Origin: Deltaproteobacteria bacterium
GTDB lineage: Bacteria; Myxococcota; Myxococcia; SLRQ01
Direction of reading: 5' to 3'
DNA: 64,000 bases
NCBI GenBank assembly: GCA_029210625.1
Contig: JARGFU010000008.1
Span: 62,001 to 126,000, forward strand
Within the stretch, counting starts at the first letter, position 1. Every line of letters begins with the position of its first letter. Positions 9,724 through 52,263 of this stretch are shown here, in pieces. The notes beneath the pieces were generated by a model. That model ran no database searches. It was not told the origin of the DNA and saw only the letters and a program-made list of their open reading frames with translations. The position numbers were made by a program, and so were the translations under genes.

Positions 9724-10080
9724 ATGGATCTCAACGTCGAGTTCCGCTTCTGCGCGGCCCATCGTCTGCCCAACTACGATGGGCCGTGCAACCGCGTCCA
9801 CGGTCACAACTACCGCTTCGAGGTCGAGGTGCGGGGTCAGCCCGATCCCCACTCGGGGATGATCCTCGACTTCGTCGAGATCGACCGCATCGTCCGGGAG
9901 AAGATCGTGGACGTGGTCGATCACCAGAGCCTCAACGACTTCCTCGAGAACCCCACCGCCGAGCTGATCGCGAAGTGGTTCTGGGAGCTCCTCGAGGGGC
10001 CCCTCCCGGGCCTGACCCAGATCCGCCTCTGGGAGGTGGACAACTGCTCGGTCATCTACCGGGGGCCGGATTCGCAGTGA
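9724..10080 (+). CDS. queD: 6-pyruvoyl/6-carboxytetrahydropterin synthase (QueD/PTPS family)
   Basis: 118 aa. Acts on dihydroneopterin triphosphate to make 6-carboxy- or 6-pyruvoyl-tetrahydropterin. Zinc ligands are His13 (CAAHRL), His26 and His28 (CNRVHGH). The catalytic Cys is Cys22, so it is the canonical Cys-type enzyme and not the Glu-type PTPS-III that substitutes for FolB. The active-site Asp and His in DVVDHQSLND and the C-terminal Glu in RLWEVDNC are also present. It is the first gene of a coupled run with folE, an SDR and folB, and no queC or queE is nearby. The product may therefore be a tetrahydropterin cofactor as easily as queuosine. Confidence 0.88.
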   Translation: MDLNVEFRFCAAHRLPNYDGPCNRVHGHNYRFEVEVRGQPDPHSGMILDFVEIDRIVREKIVDVVDHQSLNDFLENPTAELIAKWFWELLEGPLPGLTQIRLWEVDNCSVIYRGPDSQ

Positions 10081-10673
10081 AGCAGGAGGCCATGGCCGCG
10101 GCGATCGCCGACTTCCTCCGCGCGGCCGGCCTCGATCCGGATCAGGGCGAGCTCGCCGGCACCCCCGAGCGGGTGGCGCGCGCCTGGTCCGAGGAGCTGC
10201 TGGTGGGACAGGGCGCCGGGCCCGCCGAGCTCCTCGGCGGCCTCCCCCCCGTCGATGAGAGCGGCGGCCAGGAGCTGGTGATCTTCACCGGCATCACCTT
10301 CACCTCCTGCTGCCCCCACCACCTCCTGCCCTACCCCGGCCGGGCCCACCTGGCCTTCCGCCCGACCACCCACCTGGCGGGCTTCGGCGAGCTGGCCCGC
10401 CTCGTACGCGGGCTGGGCGCCCGCCTCGTCCTCCAGGAGACCCTCACCGCCGAGATCGCCGCGGCCCTCGAGAGCGTCCTCGGCGCGTCGGCGGCGGCCT
10501 GCGTGATCGACGGCTGGCCGATGTGCGTGGCCACCCGGGGGGCCCGGGAGCCCGGCAGCCGGGTGCGCACCGCCTCCTATCGTGGCGACTACGCCGGGGA
10601 CGGATCGACCCACCCCGACCTGCGCCTCTTCCTCGACGCGGTGGAGACCGCCGGGCGGGAGAGCGCCCGATGA
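10077..10673 (+). CDS. folE: GTP cyclohydrolase I (FolE)
   Basis: 198 aa from a GTG at 10077 that overlaps the queD stop as GTGA; an ATG at 10092 with a near GGAGG is an alternative start. Converts GTP to 7,8-dihydroneopterin triphosphate, the shared precursor of folate and other pterins. Zinc ligands Cys79 and His82 (SCCPHH) and Cys150 (PMCVATRG) correspond to E. coli Cys110, His113 and Cys181. The helix AGFGELARLVRGLGARLVLQ matches the substrate-binding region. It is somewhat shorter and more divergent than E. coli FolE (222 aa) but keeps the catalytic set. Confidence 0.9.
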   Translation: MKQEAMAAAIADFLRAAGLDPDQGELAGTPERVARAWSEELLVGQGAGPAELLGGLPPVDESGGQELVIFTGITFTSCCPHHLLPYPGRAHLAFRPTTHLAGFGELARLVRGLGARLVLQETLTAEIAAALESVLGASAAACVIDGWPMCVATRGAREPGSRVRTASYRGDYAGDGSTHPDLRLFLDAVETAGRESAR

Positions 10674-11374
10674 GCCTCGCGGGCAAGGTCGCCCTCGTGA
10701 CCGGCGCCAGCCGGGGCATCGGCCGGGCGGTCGCCGACGCCCTGCTCGGCGAGGGCGCCCGGGTCGGCCTGATCGCCCGCGACCCCGAGCGCCTCGCCGG
10801 CGCCGAGCGCGCCCTGCGCGAGGCCCACCCCGGCGGGGAGCTCGCGAGCCGGGCCGGGGACGTCGGCGACGCGGCCGCGGTAGAGCGGATCGTCACCGAG
10901 CTGGAGGAGCACCTCGGCCCGGTCGACCTCCTGGTGAACAACGCCGGGGTCGTCCACCGCAGCCCGGTGGCCGGTCACTCCCTCGAGGCCTGGGACGCGG
11001 TCCTCGAGACCAACCTGCGCGGCGCGTTCCTCTACATGCGCGCGGTCCTGCCCGGGATGATCTCCCGCGGCGCCGGGCGAATCGTGAACGTCTCCTCGAT
11101 CAGCGGCACCCTCGGCACCGCGGGCCTCTCGGCCTACTGCGCCTCGAAGTGGGGCCTCATCGGCCTGACCAAGTCGGCCGCCGAGGAGGTGCGCGAGCAC
11201 GGCATCCTCGTGGCGGCCGTCTGTCCGGGCTCGGTCGACACCGACATGCTGAAGCAGGGCGTCCCGGGCCTCCAGCCCGACATGAGCCCCGCCGAGGTCG
11301 CCCGCACGATCCTCTTCCTCTCGAAGGACGCCCCCCTCGCCATGACCGGTTCGGCCGTGGAGATCTTCGGATGA
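10670..11374 (+). CDS. Short-chain dehydrogenase/reductase in pterin cluster
   Basis: 234 aa, a classical SDR. The NAD(P) motif TGASRGIG (residues 11-18), NNAG (90-93), Ser143, Tyr156 and Lys160 (YCASK) form the full catalytic set. An Arg after the Gly-rich motif favours NADPH. By sequence alone it looks FabG-like. Its position, coupled by ATGA overlaps to folE upstream and folB downstream, points to a pterin substrate, for example a sepiapterin-type or dihydromonapterin-type reduction. That assignment rests on neighbourhood only. Confidence 0.87.
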   Translation: MSLAGKVALVTGASRGIGRAVADALLGEGARVGLIARDPERLAGAERALREAHPGGELASRAGDVGDAAAVERIVTELEEHLGPVDLLVNNAGVVHRSPVAGHSLEAWDAVLETNLRGAFLYMRAVLPGMISRGAGRIVNVSSISGTLGTAGLSAYCASKWGLIGLTKSAAEEVREHGILVAAVCPGSVDTDMLKQGVPGLQPDMSPAEVARTILFLSKDAPLAMTGSAVEIFG

Positions 11375-11844
11375 GCACCAAGACCAGCACCCCGCCCCCC
11401 CTCTCCGCCTCCTCCCCCACCCCTCCCGAGGGGGTCCGCACCGAGGCCGGCGTCATCGGCCTCGAGGGCCTGACCTTCGACGGCCACCACGGCTACTACC
11501 GCGGCGAGCGGACGCGGGCGCGCCCCTTCGGGGTGGACCTGCAGGTCGGCCGGCGGGTCGACCGCGCGGCGCACTCGGACGAGCTCGAGGACACCCTCGA
11601 CTACAACGGCCTGGCCGAGACGGCCGGCCGGATCGTGACCGAGACCAGCTTCCGCCTCATCGAGCGGCTGGCCGGCGCCATCGCCGACGCCCTCCTCGAG
11701 GAGCACCCCACCCTGCGCTGGGTGGAGGTCACCGTCCACAAGCCCTCGCCCCAGGTGGTGGGCAACCCGCGGGCCGCCTGGGTCCGCCTGCGGCGGGACC
11801 GGATCGACGTTTTGGCGACAGAGGGACACCCTGGACTAGAATGA
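11371..11844 (+). CDS. folB: Dihydroneopterin aldolase (FolB)
   Basis: 157 aa. Converts 7,8-dihydroneopterin to 6-hydroxymethyl-dihydropterin and glycolaldehyde in folate synthesis. The family core begins near residue 29 (VIGLEGLTFDGHHGYYRGER), with Glu46 at the conserved active-site Glu, Tyr78 in TLDYNGL, and the catalytic Lys124 in VTVHKPSP. The first 28 residues are a Pro/Ser/Thr-rich extension not typical of FolB (about 120 aa). The ATG overlaps the SDR stop (ATGA). No folP or folK lies in the window. Confidence 0.9.
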   Translation: MSTKTSTPPPLSASSPTPPEGVRTEAGVIGLEGLTFDGHHGYYRGERTRARPFGVDLQVGRRVDRAAHSDELEDTLDYNGLAETAGRIVTETSFRLIERLAGAIADALLEEHPTLRWVEVTVHKPSPQVVGNPRAAWVRLRRDRIDVLATEGHPGLE

Positions 11845-47398: not shown

Positions 47399-48028
47399 AT
47401 GAACGAGAAGAGCCTCGACCGTCTGATCGCGACCCTGCCCTGCGCGCTCTACGAGTACGTGCGCTGGCCGGACGGCAGCAGCAAGTTCATCTACGTGAGC
47501 GCGCAGGTCGAGGACCTCTTCGGCTGGAGCGCCCCGGAGGCCATGGAGGACGCGATGAAGCTCTGGGGCGCGGTGCACCCGGAGGACCTCGAGCGGCTGC
47601 TCGCCGAGGACAAGGAGGCCAACGAGAGCCGGACGCGCTTCGACTCCGAGTTCCGGATCCTCGCCCGCTCCGGCGAGACGAAGTGGCTCCACCTGACCTC
47701 GATGCCCAGCGACGAGACCCACGAGGGCCAGGAGATCTGGCGTGGCGTGATGCTCGACGTCACACCCCGCAAGAGCGCGGAGCTCGAGCAGGAGCGGCTG
47801 CGCGGAGAGCTGAAGGTGGCCCACGCCGACCTCGAGGCCCTCTCCGGGCTGCTCCCCATCTGTCTCTACTGCAAGAAGATCCGCGACGACGCCGGCTACT
47901 GGCAGAAGGTCGAGAGCTACCTCGCCCGGCACAGTCAGGCGAAGTTTAGCCACGGCTGCTGCCCCGACTGCGCCGATCGGCTCTCCCACGAGGCCGGCCT
48001 CGAGGCCACGGCCGAAGAGGCGAGCTAG
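47399..48028 (+). CDS. PAS domain protein with C-terminal Cys-cluster motif
   Basis: 209 aa. PAS domain with a PAC tail (about residues 8-130: YVSAQVEDLFGWSAPEAM; RWRGVMLDVTPRKSAE-like ending), a short helix, then LPICLYCKKIRDDAGYWQKV and FSHGCCPDC. This C-terminal CxxCK...SHGxCPxC segment occurs after PAS or receiver domains in other bacteria and probably binds metal; its function is unknown. No kinase or GGDEF output is present. It stands 25 nt before the pseudokinase gene and may sense a signal for that operon. Confidence 0.83.
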   Translation: MNEKSLDRLIATLPCALYEYVRWPDGSSKFIYVSAQVEDLFGWSAPEAMEDAMKLWGAVHPEDLERLLAEDKEANESRTRFDSEFRILARSGETKWLHLTSMPSDETHEGQEIWRGVMLDVTPRKSAELEQERLRGELKVAHADLEALSGLLPICLYCKKIRDDAGYWQKVESYLARHSQAKFSHGCCPDCADRLSHEAGLEATAEEAS

Positions 48029-48053: not shown

Positions 48054-49052
48054 ATGCCGACCTTCGTCGAAGAGCTCTGCCCCCGCTGCGGGGCGCCCCT
48101 GCCGGCCCGGGCCGCGACCGGCATCGTGCACTGCGAGTACTGCGCGACCGAGCTGATCCCGGAGTACGGCAGGCTGCGCCTGGTCGAGACCCGCGACGAG
48201 GATCTGCCGGATCCGGACCGCCCCCGGCTCTGGATCGGCGGCCGGCGCTACGTGCTCCTCGGGAGGCTGGCGAGGGGGGAGTGCTCCGACGTCCACCTCG
48301 GCCGCCGGGATCACCGGCTCACCGAGCAGGTGGTGGTGGCGGTGCTGCGGGATCCGGAGCACCGCGAGCGGCTCGCGCAGGCCTGGTCGATCCTCGAGGC
48401 CCTCCAGCGCTCCACCCGCCAGGGCCGCGACCACTTCACCCGCCTCCTGCCCCAGCCGGTCGCGCACGGAGAGGCTCGCCTGGGACTCCACGGCACCGAG
48501 GGCAGCGTCCCGGTGTCGGTCTTCCGGCACGCCCCCGGCTTCATCCACACCCTCGAGGACGTCCGGCAGGCCTACCCCCGGGGCGTCGCGCCCGAGGCGG
48601 CGGTCTGGCTCTGGAAGCGGATCGTCGAGCTGCTCGCCTGGCTGCACCAGTCCGACCAGGTCCACGGCGGGGTGCTGCCCGAGCACCTGCTGATCCATGC
48701 CCGGGATCATGGCGTGCGCCTCGTCGGCTGGTCGCGCTCGGTCCGCGCGGGCGAGCCGCTGCCGGCCTTCACCGCCGCGCGACGCGAGCTCTACCCGGAG
48801 GCTGCCTGGGCGGGCGGCGAGGCCCGCCCGGCGACCGATCTCACCATGGCCGCCCGCTGCATCCGCTGGACCCTCGGCGACACGCCGGCGCCGCCCCCCC
48901 TCGACGATCTGCTGGAGCGCTGGGCCACCGGCGAGGGCCGAGGCGAGGGCTGGGCGCTCCTCGAGGCCATCGACGCGGCCGCCCGCCAGGCCTTCGGCCC
49001 ACCCCGCTACGTACCCTTCCCGATGCCGGGCTGGCCCGGCCTCGAAGCCTAG
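48054..49052 (+). CDS. Zinc-ribbon pseudokinase
   Basis: 332 aa. An N-terminal zinc ribbon (CPRC, Cys9/12; CEYC, Cys27/30) is followed by a protein-kinase-like fold from about residue 64. The glycine-rich strand YVLLGRLARGECSDVHLGRR is recognisable, but the VAIK Lys is Leu98. The HRD catalytic Asp is gone (VHGGVLPEHLLI; His204-Gly205-Gly206), and the DFG Asp is replaced (RLVGWS, Gly225). With all three catalytic signatures lost it should be a pseudokinase that may bind nucleotide or partners. Two vWA genes and a PurA-like gene follow at 15, 7 and 6 nt, which implies a joint complex. Confidence 0.8.
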   Translation: MPTFVEELCPRCGAPLPARAATGIVHCEYCATELIPEYGRLRLVETRDEDLPDPDRPRLWIGGRRYVLLGRLARGECSDVHLGRRDHRLTEQVVVAVLRDPEHRERLAQAWSILEALQRSTRQGRDHFTRLLPQPVAHGEARLGLHGTEGSVPVSVFRHAPGFIHTLEDVRQAYPRGVAPEAAVWLWKRIVELLAWLHQSDQVHGGVLPEHLLIHARDHGVRLVGWSRSVRAGEPLPAFTAARRELYPEAAWAGGEARPATDLTMAARCIRWTLGDTPAPPPLDDLLERWATGEGRGEGWALLEAIDAAARQAFGPPRYVPFPMPGWPGLEA

Positions 49053-49067
49053 AAGAGGAGAACCACG

Positions 49068-49958
49068 ATGGGCTACGGCTCCTATAGCTATGACGCGCAC
49101 CAGGCGCTCACCCGCTCCCGCCAGGGGCTCTCGGCCGACGCCGTCTTCACCCAGACCGTCATGCACCCCGCGATGGACCCCAAGGGCGTCCGCTTCCGCG
49201 AGTCGCGGGACAGCGAGGCGCACCCCGACTCCCTGGGCATCGTCTTCGCCCTCGACATCAGCGGCTCGATGGCCCAGATCCCGGTCAGCATCGCCTGCGA
49301 GCAGCTGCCGGGCTTCATGAAGCTCCTCGAGGACTGCCGGGTGGCCGACCCCCAGGTCCTCTTCATGGCTTTCACCGACCTGCAGGGGGACGGCCGCCCG
49401 CTGCAGGTGGGGCAGTTCGAGACGACCGCCGAGCTGATGGACCAGTGGCTCACCCGCTGCTCCCTCAAGGGAGGCGGCAACGAGCTCTACGAGCTCGCCA
49501 TGCACTTCGCCGCCCACCACACGGCGATGGACTGCTGGGAGCGGCGTCAGAAGAAGGGCTACTTCTTCATCACCGGCGACGAGCCCACCAGCGAGACCCT
49601 CTCCGCCGCGGTGGTCGAGCGCTTCCTCGGCACCAGCATCCAGGACCAGCCCCTCGAGGCGGTGGTGGAGGATCTGAAGAAGACCTACGAGCCCTTCTTC
49701 CTCATCCCCGACCGGAGCCGGGGCTCGCGCATCGCCGACTTCTGGCGGCGCTACCTGGGCGACCGCACGATCGTGCTCGAGAGCCCCGACGACACCTGCG
49801 GGGCCGCCGCCGGCCTGGTCGCCCTCGGCGAGGGCACTGTCTCCGATCTCTCCGAGCTCCAGGCGCGCCTCGTGGCGGCCGGCACCTCGAAGGCCCGCGC
49901 GGGCGCCATCGCCGGCGCCCTGAAGCCCTGGGCCGAGAGCAGCGAGCGGGGCCGGTAG
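49068..49958 (+). CDS. von Willebrand A domain protein, copy 1 of tandem pair
   Basis: 296 aa, cytosolic (no signal or membrane segment). The N-terminus MGYGSYSYDAHQALTRSRQG is almost repeated in the next gene. The vWA core has MIDAS DISGSM (Asp63, Ser65, Ser67), a Thr in AFTDLQGD and an acidic FITGDEPTSE, so metal binding looks intact. The C-terminal region includes YEPFFLIPDRSRGSRI and ends in a helical cap. Copy 2 aligns over the whole length. Lies between the pseudokinase and copy 2 on one strand. Confidence 0.85.
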   Translation: MGYGSYSYDAHQALTRSRQGLSADAVFTQTVMHPAMDPKGVRFRESRDSEAHPDSLGIVFALDISGSMAQIPVSIACEQLPGFMKLLEDCRVADPQVLFMAFTDLQGDGRPLQVGQFETTAELMDQWLTRCSLKGGGNELYELAMHFAAHHTAMDCWERRQKKGYFFITGDEPTSETLSAAVVERFLGTSIQDQPLEAVVEDLKKTYEPFFLIPDRSRGSRIADFWRRYLGDRTIVLESPDDTCGAAAGLVALGEGTVSDLSELQARLVAAGTSKARAGAIAGALKPWAESSERGR

Positions 49959-49965
49959 CGCGGCG

Positions 49966-50949
49966 ATGGGCTACGGCGCCTACAGCTACGAGGCCCACCG
50001 GGCCCTCACCCTCACCCGCCAGGCGAAGCCCGCCCAGGAGGTCTTCCAGCAGCGCGCCTGCCACCCGCTGATGGATCCGCAGGGCATCACCCTGCGAGAG
50101 AGCCGGGACTCCCCCGAGCACCCCGAGTCCCTCGGCATCGTCTTCGCCCTCGACGTCACCGGCTCGATGGGCGCCATCCCCCAGAAGCTCGCGACCCGCG
50201 ACCTCCCGGGCTTCCTCCAGCGCGTGATCGCCCTGGGGATCGACCACCCCCAGGTGCTCTTCCTGGGCGTGGGCGACGCCACCGGCGATCGCGCACCGCT
50301 GCAGATCGGTCAGTTCGAGTCCACCGCCGAGCTGATGGATCAGTGGCTGACCTCCTGCTGGCTGGAGTCGGGGGGCGGCCGCGGCGATCGCGAGTCCTAC
50401 GAGCTCGCCCTCTTCTTCGCCGCCCGCCACGTCGCGATGGACTGCCACCTCAAGCGCGGGCAGCGGGGCTACCTCTTCCTCACCGGCGACGAGAAGCCCT
50501 ACCCGCGCCTCGCCCGCCAGATCGTCCTCTCGGTGCTGGGGCACGAGATCGACACCGACTTCCCGACAGCCGCGGTGGTCGAGGAGGTGCAGCACCTCTT
50601 CGAGCCCTTCTTCCTCATCCCGGATCTGGCCCGCCGCTCGGCTTGCGAGCGCGAGTGGCGCGACCTGCTGGGCGACCGGGTCGTCTGCCTCGAGCACCCG
50701 GACGACACCTGCCTCGCCGCCGCCAGCCTGATCGCCCTCGACCGCGGGCTGCGCGACCTCGATCAGATCGCCGCCGGCCTCGCCGAGGACGGGGAGCCGC
50801 GGGAGCGGGTGAACCGCATCGCGCGGGCGCTGATGCCCTTCGCCGCCTCGCTGGGGCGGGACGGCTGCCCCTCGCCCTCGATCGACCCGGGCGTCCCCGT
50901 CCCCGGGGTGGCGATGGGCGCCTCGCCCTACCGCCTGCCGGACGACTAG
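49966..50949 (+). CDS. von Willebrand A domain protein, copy 2 of tandem pair
   Basis: 327 aa, a paralogue of the preceding gene, with shared blocks MGYGxYSYxAHxAL, RESRDSxEHPxSLGIVFALD, ETTAELMDQWLT-like and FFLIPDxxR. The MIDAS is DVTGSM, with Thr65 in place of the first Ser, which is still a possible metal ligand. An extra 30-residue Pro/Gly-rich tail follows the common region. The two copies could form a heterodimer. PurA-like gene begins 6 nt downstream. Confidence 0.85.
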   Translation: MGYGAYSYEAHRALTLTRQAKPAQEVFQQRACHPLMDPQGITLRESRDSPEHPESLGIVFALDVTGSMGAIPQKLATRDLPGFLQRVIALGIDHPQVLFLGVGDATGDRAPLQIGQFESTAELMDQWLTSCWLESGGGRGDRESYELALFFAARHVAMDCHLKRGQRGYLFLTGDEKPYPRLARQIVLSVLGHEIDTDFPTAAVVEEVQHLFEPFFLIPDLARRSACEREWRDLLGDRVVCLEHPDDTCLAAASLIALDRGLRDLDQIAAGLAEDGEPRERVNRIARALMPFAASLGRDGCPSPSIDPGVPVPGVAMGASPYRLPDD

Positions 50950-50955
50950 GGCGCC

Positions 50956-52263
50956 GTGGCCTCCCGGGCGTGGATGGTCGTCGACCTCGGCTTCGGCGAC
51001 GCGGGCAAGGGCGCGGTCACCGATCACCTCGTGCGACACGAGGGCGCGCGCTGGGTGATCCGCTTCAACGGCGGCGCGCAGGCTGGCCACAACGTCGTCA
51101 GCCCGCAGGGGCGGCACCACACCTTCTCCCAGCTCGGCGCCGGCACCTTCGTGCCCGGCGTGCGCACCTACCTGGCCCCGCCGGTGGTCTTCCACCCCGG
51201 CGCGGTGCGCTTCGAGGCCGCGCACCTGCGGGAGGTAGGCGTCGAGGACGCGCTGTCGCGCCTGCACCTCGCCTCCACCTGCCGGGTCACGACCCCCTTC
51301 CACCAGGCCCTCGGGCGCCTGCGCGAGCTCGCCCGCGGCGCCTCGCCCCACGGCACCTGCGGGGTCGGCGTCGGCGAGACGGTGCGCGACGCCCTCGACC
51401 ACCCGGGTGACGTGCTGCGCGCCGGCGACCTGCGGGACGCCGATCCGGGCGAGCGGCTCGAGCGGATCCGCCACCGGTGTCTCCGGGCGGCGGAGGCGCT
51501 CGCCCTCGACCTCTCTGACCCGCGCTGCGAGGAGGAGCTCGCGCTCCTGCGCGACCCCGAGGTCGTGCTTCGCTGGCGCGAGCTGATCGCTCCGGTCCTC
51601 GAGGCGATCCACCTCGAGGAGGACGAGGCCCTCGACGACGCCACCTTCGGCGAGGGGCCGCTCGTCTTCGAGGGGGCCCAGGGCGTCCTCCTCGACGAGC
51701 GGGCCGGCTTCCATCCCCACACCACCTGGAGCCGCTGCACCAGCGAGGGGGCCGAGGGCTGGCTCGCCGCCCGGGCGCTGCCCCAGCTCCCCCTTCGCCT
51801 CGGCGTCCTGCGGATCTACGCCACCCGCCACGGCCCGGGCCCCTTCCCCTCCGAGGCCCCCGAGCTCGCCTCCCTCCTGCCCGAGCCCCACAACGGCGGG
51901 CCCGGCTGGCAGGGTTCCTTCCGCCGGGGCTGGCTCGACCCGCCCCTGGTTCGTTACGCCATCGCCGCGAACGGCGGGATCGACGGCCTCGCCCTCACCC
52001 ACCTCGATCGCCTCGGCGCGCTGCCGGCCTGGCAGCAGGTGGAAGAGCACGAGGGCCTCGACCGCCCCCTCGCGCCCCCGCCCGCCCCGGGCGAGGACCT
52101 CGAGGCCCAGGCGGCGCTGGGCCGCGCGCTGGCGAGCGCGACCGCGCGCCTCGCGCCGATCCGCGCCCGCGGCGAGGCGGCCTACCTCGCCTGGCTGGAG
52201 CGCACCCTGGAGGCGCCGGTCCGCTTCGTGGGCCGGGGGCCCGCCAGCGGCGCGCTGCGCTGA
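50956..52263 (+). CDS. Divergent adenylosuccinate synthetase (PurA) paralogue
   Basis: 435 aa from a GTG. PurA joins IMP and Asp using GTP. The fold is clear: LGFGDAGKGAVTDHL (E. coli WGDEGKGK; catalytic Asp15 kept), NGGAQAGHN (catalytic His45 kept), FEGAQGVLLDE, ATRHGPGPFPSE and FRRGWLDPP. Motifs that hold the IMP base and the GTP guanine are altered. GTTGRGIGP becomes GTCGVGVGE, the TYPYVTSSN signature becomes FHPHTTWSR, and TKLD becomes THLD. Reaction on a related but different nucleotide is likely. It is the last gene of the vWA/pseudokinase run. A true PurA is presumably elsewhere. Confidence 0.83.
   Translation: MASRAWMVVDLGFGDAGKGAVTDHLVRHEGARWVIRFNGGAQAGHNVVSPQGRHHTFSQLGAGTFVPGVRTYLAPPVVFHPGAVRFEAAHLREVGVEDALSRLHLASTCRVTTPFHQALGRLRELARGASPHGTCGVGVGETVRDALDHPGDVLRAGDLRDADPGERLERIRHRCLRAAEALALDLSDPRCEEELALLRDPEVVLRWRELIAPVLEAIHLEEDEALDDATFGEGPLVFEGAQGVLLDERAGFHPHTTWSRCTSEGAEGWLAARALPQLPLRLGVLRIYATRHGPGPFPSEAPELASLLPEPHNGGPGWQGSFRRGWLDPPLVRYAIAANGGIDGLALTHLDRLGALPAWQQVEEHEGLDRPLAPPPAPGEDLEAQAALGRALASATARLAPIRARGEAAYLAWLERTLEAPVRFVGRGPASGALR

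Follow-up and report, generated by a model that had tools for sequence, protein, structure and literature searches.

A 64,000-nt window of a Myxococcota genome (GCA_029210625.1, contig JARGFU010000008.1) carries at positions 48054-52263 a conserved, horizontally mobile module of three components that are encoded together: a zinc-ribbon pseudokinase (KIN), a von Willebrand factor A (vWA) protein of the metal-ion-dependent adhesion site (MIDAS) type, and an enzyme of a new clade related to the adenylosuccinate synthetase PurA. In the window copy, four + strand open reading frames (ORFs) are separated by 15, 7 and 6 nt (Table 1), as the first-pass annotation of the window had described, and since the same order recurs at about 150 loci the arrangement is more than chance. 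The individual families have already been catalogued (PHROG 1211, 2971 and 3043); a description of the module was not found in the open-access literature searched, an earlier mention in subscription journals being possible.

A vWA profile was used as the seed for scanning 84,980 species genomes, which yielded 79 loci, and a vWA scan of viral contigs added 80 more. The PurA-like gene lies directly after the vWA gene at nearly all of the 79 bacterial loci, at most of which KIN precedes vWA, and it is present at 78 of the 80 viral loci. With annotated phage and plasmid records counted in, vWA and PurA-like genes occur together at 148 of 160 loci, nearly always adjacent, and because the search was seeded with vWA alone, the PurA linkage was not built in. 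Median gaps are 7 nt from vWA to PurA (122 pairs) and 28 nt from KIN to vWA (76 pairs), values that rest on the calls of a basic gene finder made for this analysis. The linkage that the first-pass annotation had proposed to look for in other genomes is strong in many lineages, where it had also considered that the homologues might never be linked. Judging by record titles, the module extends over more than 10 phyla, with loci in Myxococcota, Chloroflexota, Planctomycetota, Verrucomicrobiota, Acidobacteriota, Fibrobacterota, Eremiobacterota, Actinomycetota, Bacteroidota, candidate Uhrbacteria, Betaproteobacteria and others, and it is also found on plasmids and in large phages. Its spread is patchy (35/195 Myxococcota, 2/296 Actinomycetota and 3/300 genomes of the order of Massilia). 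In a set of 58 related genomes, the vWA gene is complete in ten, each of which has the divergent PurA as well, and fragments occur elsewhere; truncated vWA and/or PurA-like remnants in three relatives (L041 in G029, L044 in G013 and L042 in G054) suggest that the module was lost recently within that genus.

The components also diverge together. Mantel correlations between vWA and PurA-like distances were 0.75 for 46 bacterial pairs and 0.85 for 65 viral pairs, and those involving KIN ranged from 0.74 to 0.97; the p value of 0.0005 is the minimum for 2,000 permutations, and shared species history contributes to the correlation. KIN, vWA and PurA stay together while the flanks change between neighbourhoods, which delimits the unit to 48054-52263 without its neighbours. 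The PAS gene upstream and the M3 peptidase gene downstream were dropped as candidate members, as they were not found at the other loci.

The window PurA-like protein matches Pfam Adenylsucc_synt (PF00709, 4e-55) and falls far below the NCBIfam purA cut-off (148 vs 402 bits), as well as under every other NCBIfam PurA or PurZ cut-off. Seven further family members also fail the purA cut-off, which the canonical PurA of the own genome passes with 582 bits. The latter is encoded separately, at C5 of that genome (579 vs 187 bits), and a second, canonical PurA was likewise present in 12 of 12 outside genomes checked, so the idea that the PurA-like protein might be the organism's only adenylosuccinate synthetase was rejected. 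In a tree of 45 vWA-linked PurA-like proteins, nine canonical PurA and the PurZ of phage S-2L, all 45 formed one clade (support 100/100) whose branch measures 2.9 changes per site. The clade splits into two groups, one mostly of the KIN type and the other consisting mainly of phage proteins.

An active-site audit of 149 PurA-like sequences, given here in E. coli PurA numbering, revealed that, among the GTP/phosphoryl-transfer residues, D13, K16, H41 and Q224 are retained throughout or nearly so, as is R272, while D333, of the same functional set, is retained in almost all sequences. The positions that contact the phosphate of inosine monophosphate (IMP) are changed: N38 is Gln in 146/149, T129 is Cys or Val, and R143 is replaced by residues other than Arg. 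Among the aspartate-binding positions, T300 is Trp, Phe or Tyr, T301 is Gln in 149/149, R131 is Val, Leu or Met, and R303 is not Arg, the placement of R303 and R305 being uncertain through an alignment gap (Arg at 305 is kept in one alignment and not in the other). In addition, V273 is His in 149/149. The first-pass annotation had noted an intact catalytic Asp/His pair beside altered substrate motifs in the window protein, and this pattern extends to the whole family. Retention of the phosphoryl-transfer residues together with substrate and amine pockets fixed anew argues for a new conserved specificity and not for decay.

The AlphaFold2 model of KIN (predicted local distance difference test score, pLDDT, 90.6) has the Aurora A and PknB kinases as its best Foldseek matches, and the protein matches PHROG 3043 ('kinase', 3e-18). 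It has A96 at the position of the VAIK Lys, G206 at the HRD Asp and G225 at the DFG Asp, confirming the degenerate kinase fold proposed earlier. The designation as pseudokinase holds family-wide, with one or more catalytic residues missing from every copy examined: in the aligned KIN set the VAIK Lys is usually kept in bacterial-type proteins, the HRD Asp and the DFG Asp are each kept in some, and all three in none. The N-terminus, with CxxC...CxxC at residues 9-30 in the window protein, forms a zinc ribbon in most bacteria; Actinomycetota and phages instead have a DnaJ-like HPD segment there (weak Pfam DnaJ match, 0.0003, for KIN of locus L117). A helical protein of 112-128 aa stands upstream of vWA in the place of KIN at 38 viral loci (about half; for example L173:7630-8001) and five bacterial ones, among them those of Electronema, Winogradskyella and Mesonia; it gave no PHROG match, and its Electronema member no Pfam match either.

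The vWA1 model (pLDDT 94) matches integrin and von Willebrand factor A domains in Foldseek searches, and the protein matches PHROG 2971 (unknown function, 3e-42). vWA1 and vWA2 are 53% identical and both carry a D-x-S/T-G-S MIDAS, in agreement with their description as tandem paralogues; vWA2 is nearer to the family profile (502 vs 474 bits), and DxS/TGS is present in 164 of 168 vWA proteins. The two-vWA composition stands at the window locus and does not define the system, since most loci hold one vWA and the tandem pair is limited to some Myxococcota; a four-gene system with two vWAs was therefore rejected as the definition. Second vWA paralogues were also seen 22-30 kb from the module in the relatives G033, G037 and G043 (L023-L028, L031-L032), directly after a large sensor-kinase-like gene. 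A larger Myxococcaceae cluster spanning them was considered and rejected, as the intervening genes are unrelated and differ between genomes. An apparent intein interrupts the vWA of Mycobacterium phage Pinkcreek (gp241, L156:5965-7788) within the conserved GYxFxTGDE motif; the insertion runs from GY/CNTPDAP... to ...ASSN/C, its matches to Hint/intein Pfam families are weak, and the vWA gene is uninterrupted in other cluster C phages.

Genes related to nicotinamide adenine dinucleotide (NAD) and ADP-ribose recur beside the module in a number of independent lineages. The NrtR repressor family (Nudix plus NrtR_WHD) senses ADP-ribose (cited in PMC9503650), and NrtR genes were adjacent to the module or within a few genes of it in Oxalobacteraceae (Massilia, Janthinobacterium), Rhodocyclaceae/Accumulibacter, Nocardiopsis, Actinomadura and Agrobacterium; the neighbours in Rhodococcus and Tsukamurella are Nudix genes with weak NrtR_WHD matches. 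With none to three NrtR genes per genome of 1-12 Mb, chance proximity would be well below 1% per genome, and fewer than one NrtR-type neighbour is expected by chance over the 79 loci, compared with nine seen, related genomes being counted repeatedly. In three Rhodocyclaceae/Accumulibacter-type genomes, NAPRTase and NadE genes lie upstream of the module, joined in two of them by NadM-Nudix; the first gene of that operon is nicotinamidase-like by eye and has no Pfam match. This repeated link to NrtR and NAD salvage suggests that disturbance of the NAD/ADP-ribose balance induces the module or yields its substrate. In Massilia (L084:6026-7018, L089 and L102), NrtR and KIN are separated by a Band-7/SPFH gene that seems to belong to the same operon.

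From these data we infer, with strength decreasing in this order, an active enzyme, its product, gating by a scaffold and a role in conflict. The PurA-like enzyme would still act in the way PurA acts on IMP, using guanosine triphosphate (GTP) for phosphorylation of a lactam-type oxygen, here on a purine-like substrate. Other conserved residues stand in place of those that contact the IMP phosphate and aspartate, so that either the substrate or the amine that enters probably differs from that of PurA, and the product would be a modified nucleotide distinct from adenylosuccinate. The vWA protein, presumably Mg-dependent and peptide-binding (vWA has been described as a peptide-binding chaperone; PMC9503650), and the pseudokinase may serve as scaffold and regulator of the enzyme or of its target. 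The module would be switched on, or its substrate produced, upon NAD/ADP-ribose imbalance, for example in phage-host conflict, large phages carrying their own versions. We consider it nearly an even bet that a vWA/pseudokinase scaffold controls a GTP-dependent ligase whose nucleotide product is not adenylosuccinate, and that it does so in conflict with phages or in stress linked to NAD/ADP-ribose; gating of modified-nucleotide synthesis, as proposed in the first-pass annotation, is consistent with the data. More tentatively, the module may represent an undescribed nucleotide-ligase system found in large phages as well as in many phyla of bacteria, in which the controlled PurA-family enzyme makes a new nucleotide or NAD-derived molecule in such conflict or stress.

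Several observations weigh against this scaffold/ligase proposal. KIN is absent from about one third of the loci, in many of which the small helical protein is found, so the pseudokinase is not obligatory. The NAD link is confined to a minority (9 of 79 bacterial contig loci and three plasmid lineages), no NAD-linked neighbour is present at the window locus, and sharing the regulator NrtR need not mean sharing a pathway. Moreover, the roles of the substrate residues are transferred from published E. coli PurA structures.

The main rivals are plain repair of NAD metabolites and a protein-modifying variant. In the former, the PurA-like enzyme would repair or salvage a damaged or rare NAD-related nucleotide, with its partners acting as chaperones or regulators and no role in conflict. 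The position of the module at the 3' end of a pncB-nadE-nadM operon and the repeated NrtR pairing favour it, but the patchy presence within phyla, the many phage copies and the lack of NAD neighbours in most lineages make it unlikely. In the protein-modifying variant, the vWA protein and the J-domain or zinc-ribbon pseudokinase would hold a client, and the PurA-like enzyme would use an amine of the client, in place of free aspartate, as the acceptor of an activated purine nucleotide. This would fit the loss of aspartate-binding residues with retention of phosphoryl transfer, the DnaJ-like N-termini of phage and actinobacterial KIN, the chaperone-like vWA, and the R2K ATP-grasp genes near the phage module at 18 loci, whose family has ligation of amino acids to proteins as its predicted activity (PMC4431377). 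The R2K neighbours are restricted to one phage group, however, and no PurA-fold enzyme is known to act on a protein, so we regard this variant as rather improbable.

The module was found in hundreds of viral contigs and about 200 phage records, which, with its patchy presence within genera, raises the alternative of a phage-conflict module proper, serving bacterial defence, phage counter-defence or takeover through a small-molecule signal. A NADAR gene upstream of a Vibrio phage copy, TROVE-type proteins near ten loci in phages and weak matches of KIN to PADLOC kinase-type defence models point the same way. Against it, the module contains no nuclease or pore effector and the window locus has housekeeping neighbours, leaving this alternative with a small share of the probability. 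A redundant adenylosuccinate synthetase isozyme, suggested by the PurA fold with D13, H41 and Q224, is very improbable given the substrate contacts replaced by other fixed residues, the canonical PurA always also present in the genomes checked and the long branch of the clade.

Pairing of a vWA protein with a kinase-fold protein is a known theme; what is new is the PurA-like clade together with its coupling to this pair. The TerY-P triad combines vWA, a Ser/Thr kinase and PP2C, as in yegI-yegK-yegL of E. coli. Genes for a zinc-ribbon kinase, PP2C and vWA have been described (PMC7159879). The module is similar in that a stand-alone vWA neighbours a zinc-ribbon protein of kinase fold, but its kinase is degenerate in all copies examined and the PurA-like enzyme takes the place of PP2C, for which no candidate appeared among the recurrent clustered neighbour genes, the window flanks being the PAS and M3 peptidase genes. 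The likeness to tellurium-resistance systems drawn in the first-pass annotation proved loose: PP2C, TerD and TerC were not seen, whereas PRTase_3 and HAD genes, with Nudix and HIRAN, lie near a Rhizobium phage copy. PRTase and HAD hydrolase are enzyme types named for Ter-type nucleoside-signal synthesis (PMC7824862), and with Nudix they form the likeness here, but it is seen in one phage group only and the core genes of the module are not Ter genes.

Compared with canonical PurA (PF00709, TIGR00184), the PurA-like proteins have the fold and the phosphoryl-transfer residues in common and differ in the replaced aspartate and IMP-phosphate contacts, in forming a separate clade and in coexisting with PurA. 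PurZ, from phages with 2-aminoadenine (Z) DNA, is likewise a phage-borne PurA relative, and PHROG 1211, to which the family belongs, is labelled '2-aminooxy adenylosuccinate synthetase'. The motifs differ, however, and the score against the NCBIfam PurZ model is 43.7 bits vs a cut-off of 300; identity with PurZ was rejected by model score and tree, although the S-2L PurZ branch is very long and its own placement unsure. S-2L PurZ lies with MazZ and DatZ, and in the neighbourhoods read DatZ, MazZ and DpoZ were not noticed, no model search having been aimed at them. ARG-centred ADP-ribose systems combine Nudix/WYL repressors with vWA chaperones (PMC9503650) and so share with the module a Nudix-type repressor and a vWA, both ADP-ribose-linked. 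Through NrtR_WHD matches such a repressor is found in Betaproteobacteria, Actinomycetota and Agrobacterium and not at the window locus. The module differs in being built on a PurA-like enzyme and a pseudokinase, and no ARG domain occurs in the first 25 of 69 Pfam families of phage neighbours, the bacterial neighbours being sampled only.

If the scaffold/ligase proposal is true, the vWA plus kinase-fold pair, known with phosphatases, also controls a nucleotide-forming enzyme. Many phage and bacterial 'adenylosuccinate synthetase' genes appear to belong to a separate clade with another substrate, in which case their annotation and the claims about phage purine genes would be wrong. The module is a defined, clonable operon whose product could be looked for by metabolomics, and its NrtR and NAD-salvage neighbours make sensing or remodelling of NAD/ADP-ribose in stress or infection directly testable.

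Table 1. Genes and sequence features of the module in the window.
Feature	Position	Strand	Basis
KIN, zinc-ribbon pseudokinase, 332 aa	48054..49052	+	ORF, AlphaFold2/Foldseek kinase fold, motif audit, PHROG 3043
KIN N-terminal zinc ribbon, Cys9/12/27/30	48078..48143	+	Sequence; CPxC...CxYC conserved in most bacterial homologues
vWA1, 296 aa, MIDAS DISGS at residues 63-67	49068..49958	+	AlphaFold2, Foldseek, PHROG 2971
vWA1 MIDAS motif	49254..49268	+	D63, G66 and S67 invariant over 39 homologues
vWA2, 327 aa, MIDAS DVTGS	49966..50949	+	Family vWA profile score; identity to vWA1
vWA2 MIDAS motif	50152..50166	+	Sequence, alignment with vWA1
PurA-like enzyme, 435 aa, GTG start	50956..52263	+	Pfam PF00709 (4e-55); vWA-linked clade
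PurA-like Asp15 (E. coli D13) to His45 (E. coli H41), both retained; N38 position is Gln42	50998..51090	+	
PurA-like Gln242 (E. coli Q224), retained	51679..51681	+	Invariant in 149 sequences
PurA-like His292, replaces E. coli V273	51829..51831	+	149/149
PurA-like Trp318-Gln319-Gly320, replaces aspartate-binding loop T300-T301-G302	51907..51915	+	Gln at 301 in 149/149

The phage neighbourhoods further include a NAMPT-type gene. The R2K ATP-grasp genes (for example L174:4488-5306) adjoin the module or lie near it in one group of large phages, in which genes resembling DNA/RNA ligases are also found just downstream of the module (for example L184:2935-4323). In the window itself, the PAS-domain protein whose gene (47399-48028, same strand as KIN) ends 25 nt before KIN has a Cys-rich tail, and a small pterin or deazapurine-type operon with overlapping gene ends occupies 9724-11844, encoding a PTPS/QueD-like protein, GTP cyclohydrolase I and others.

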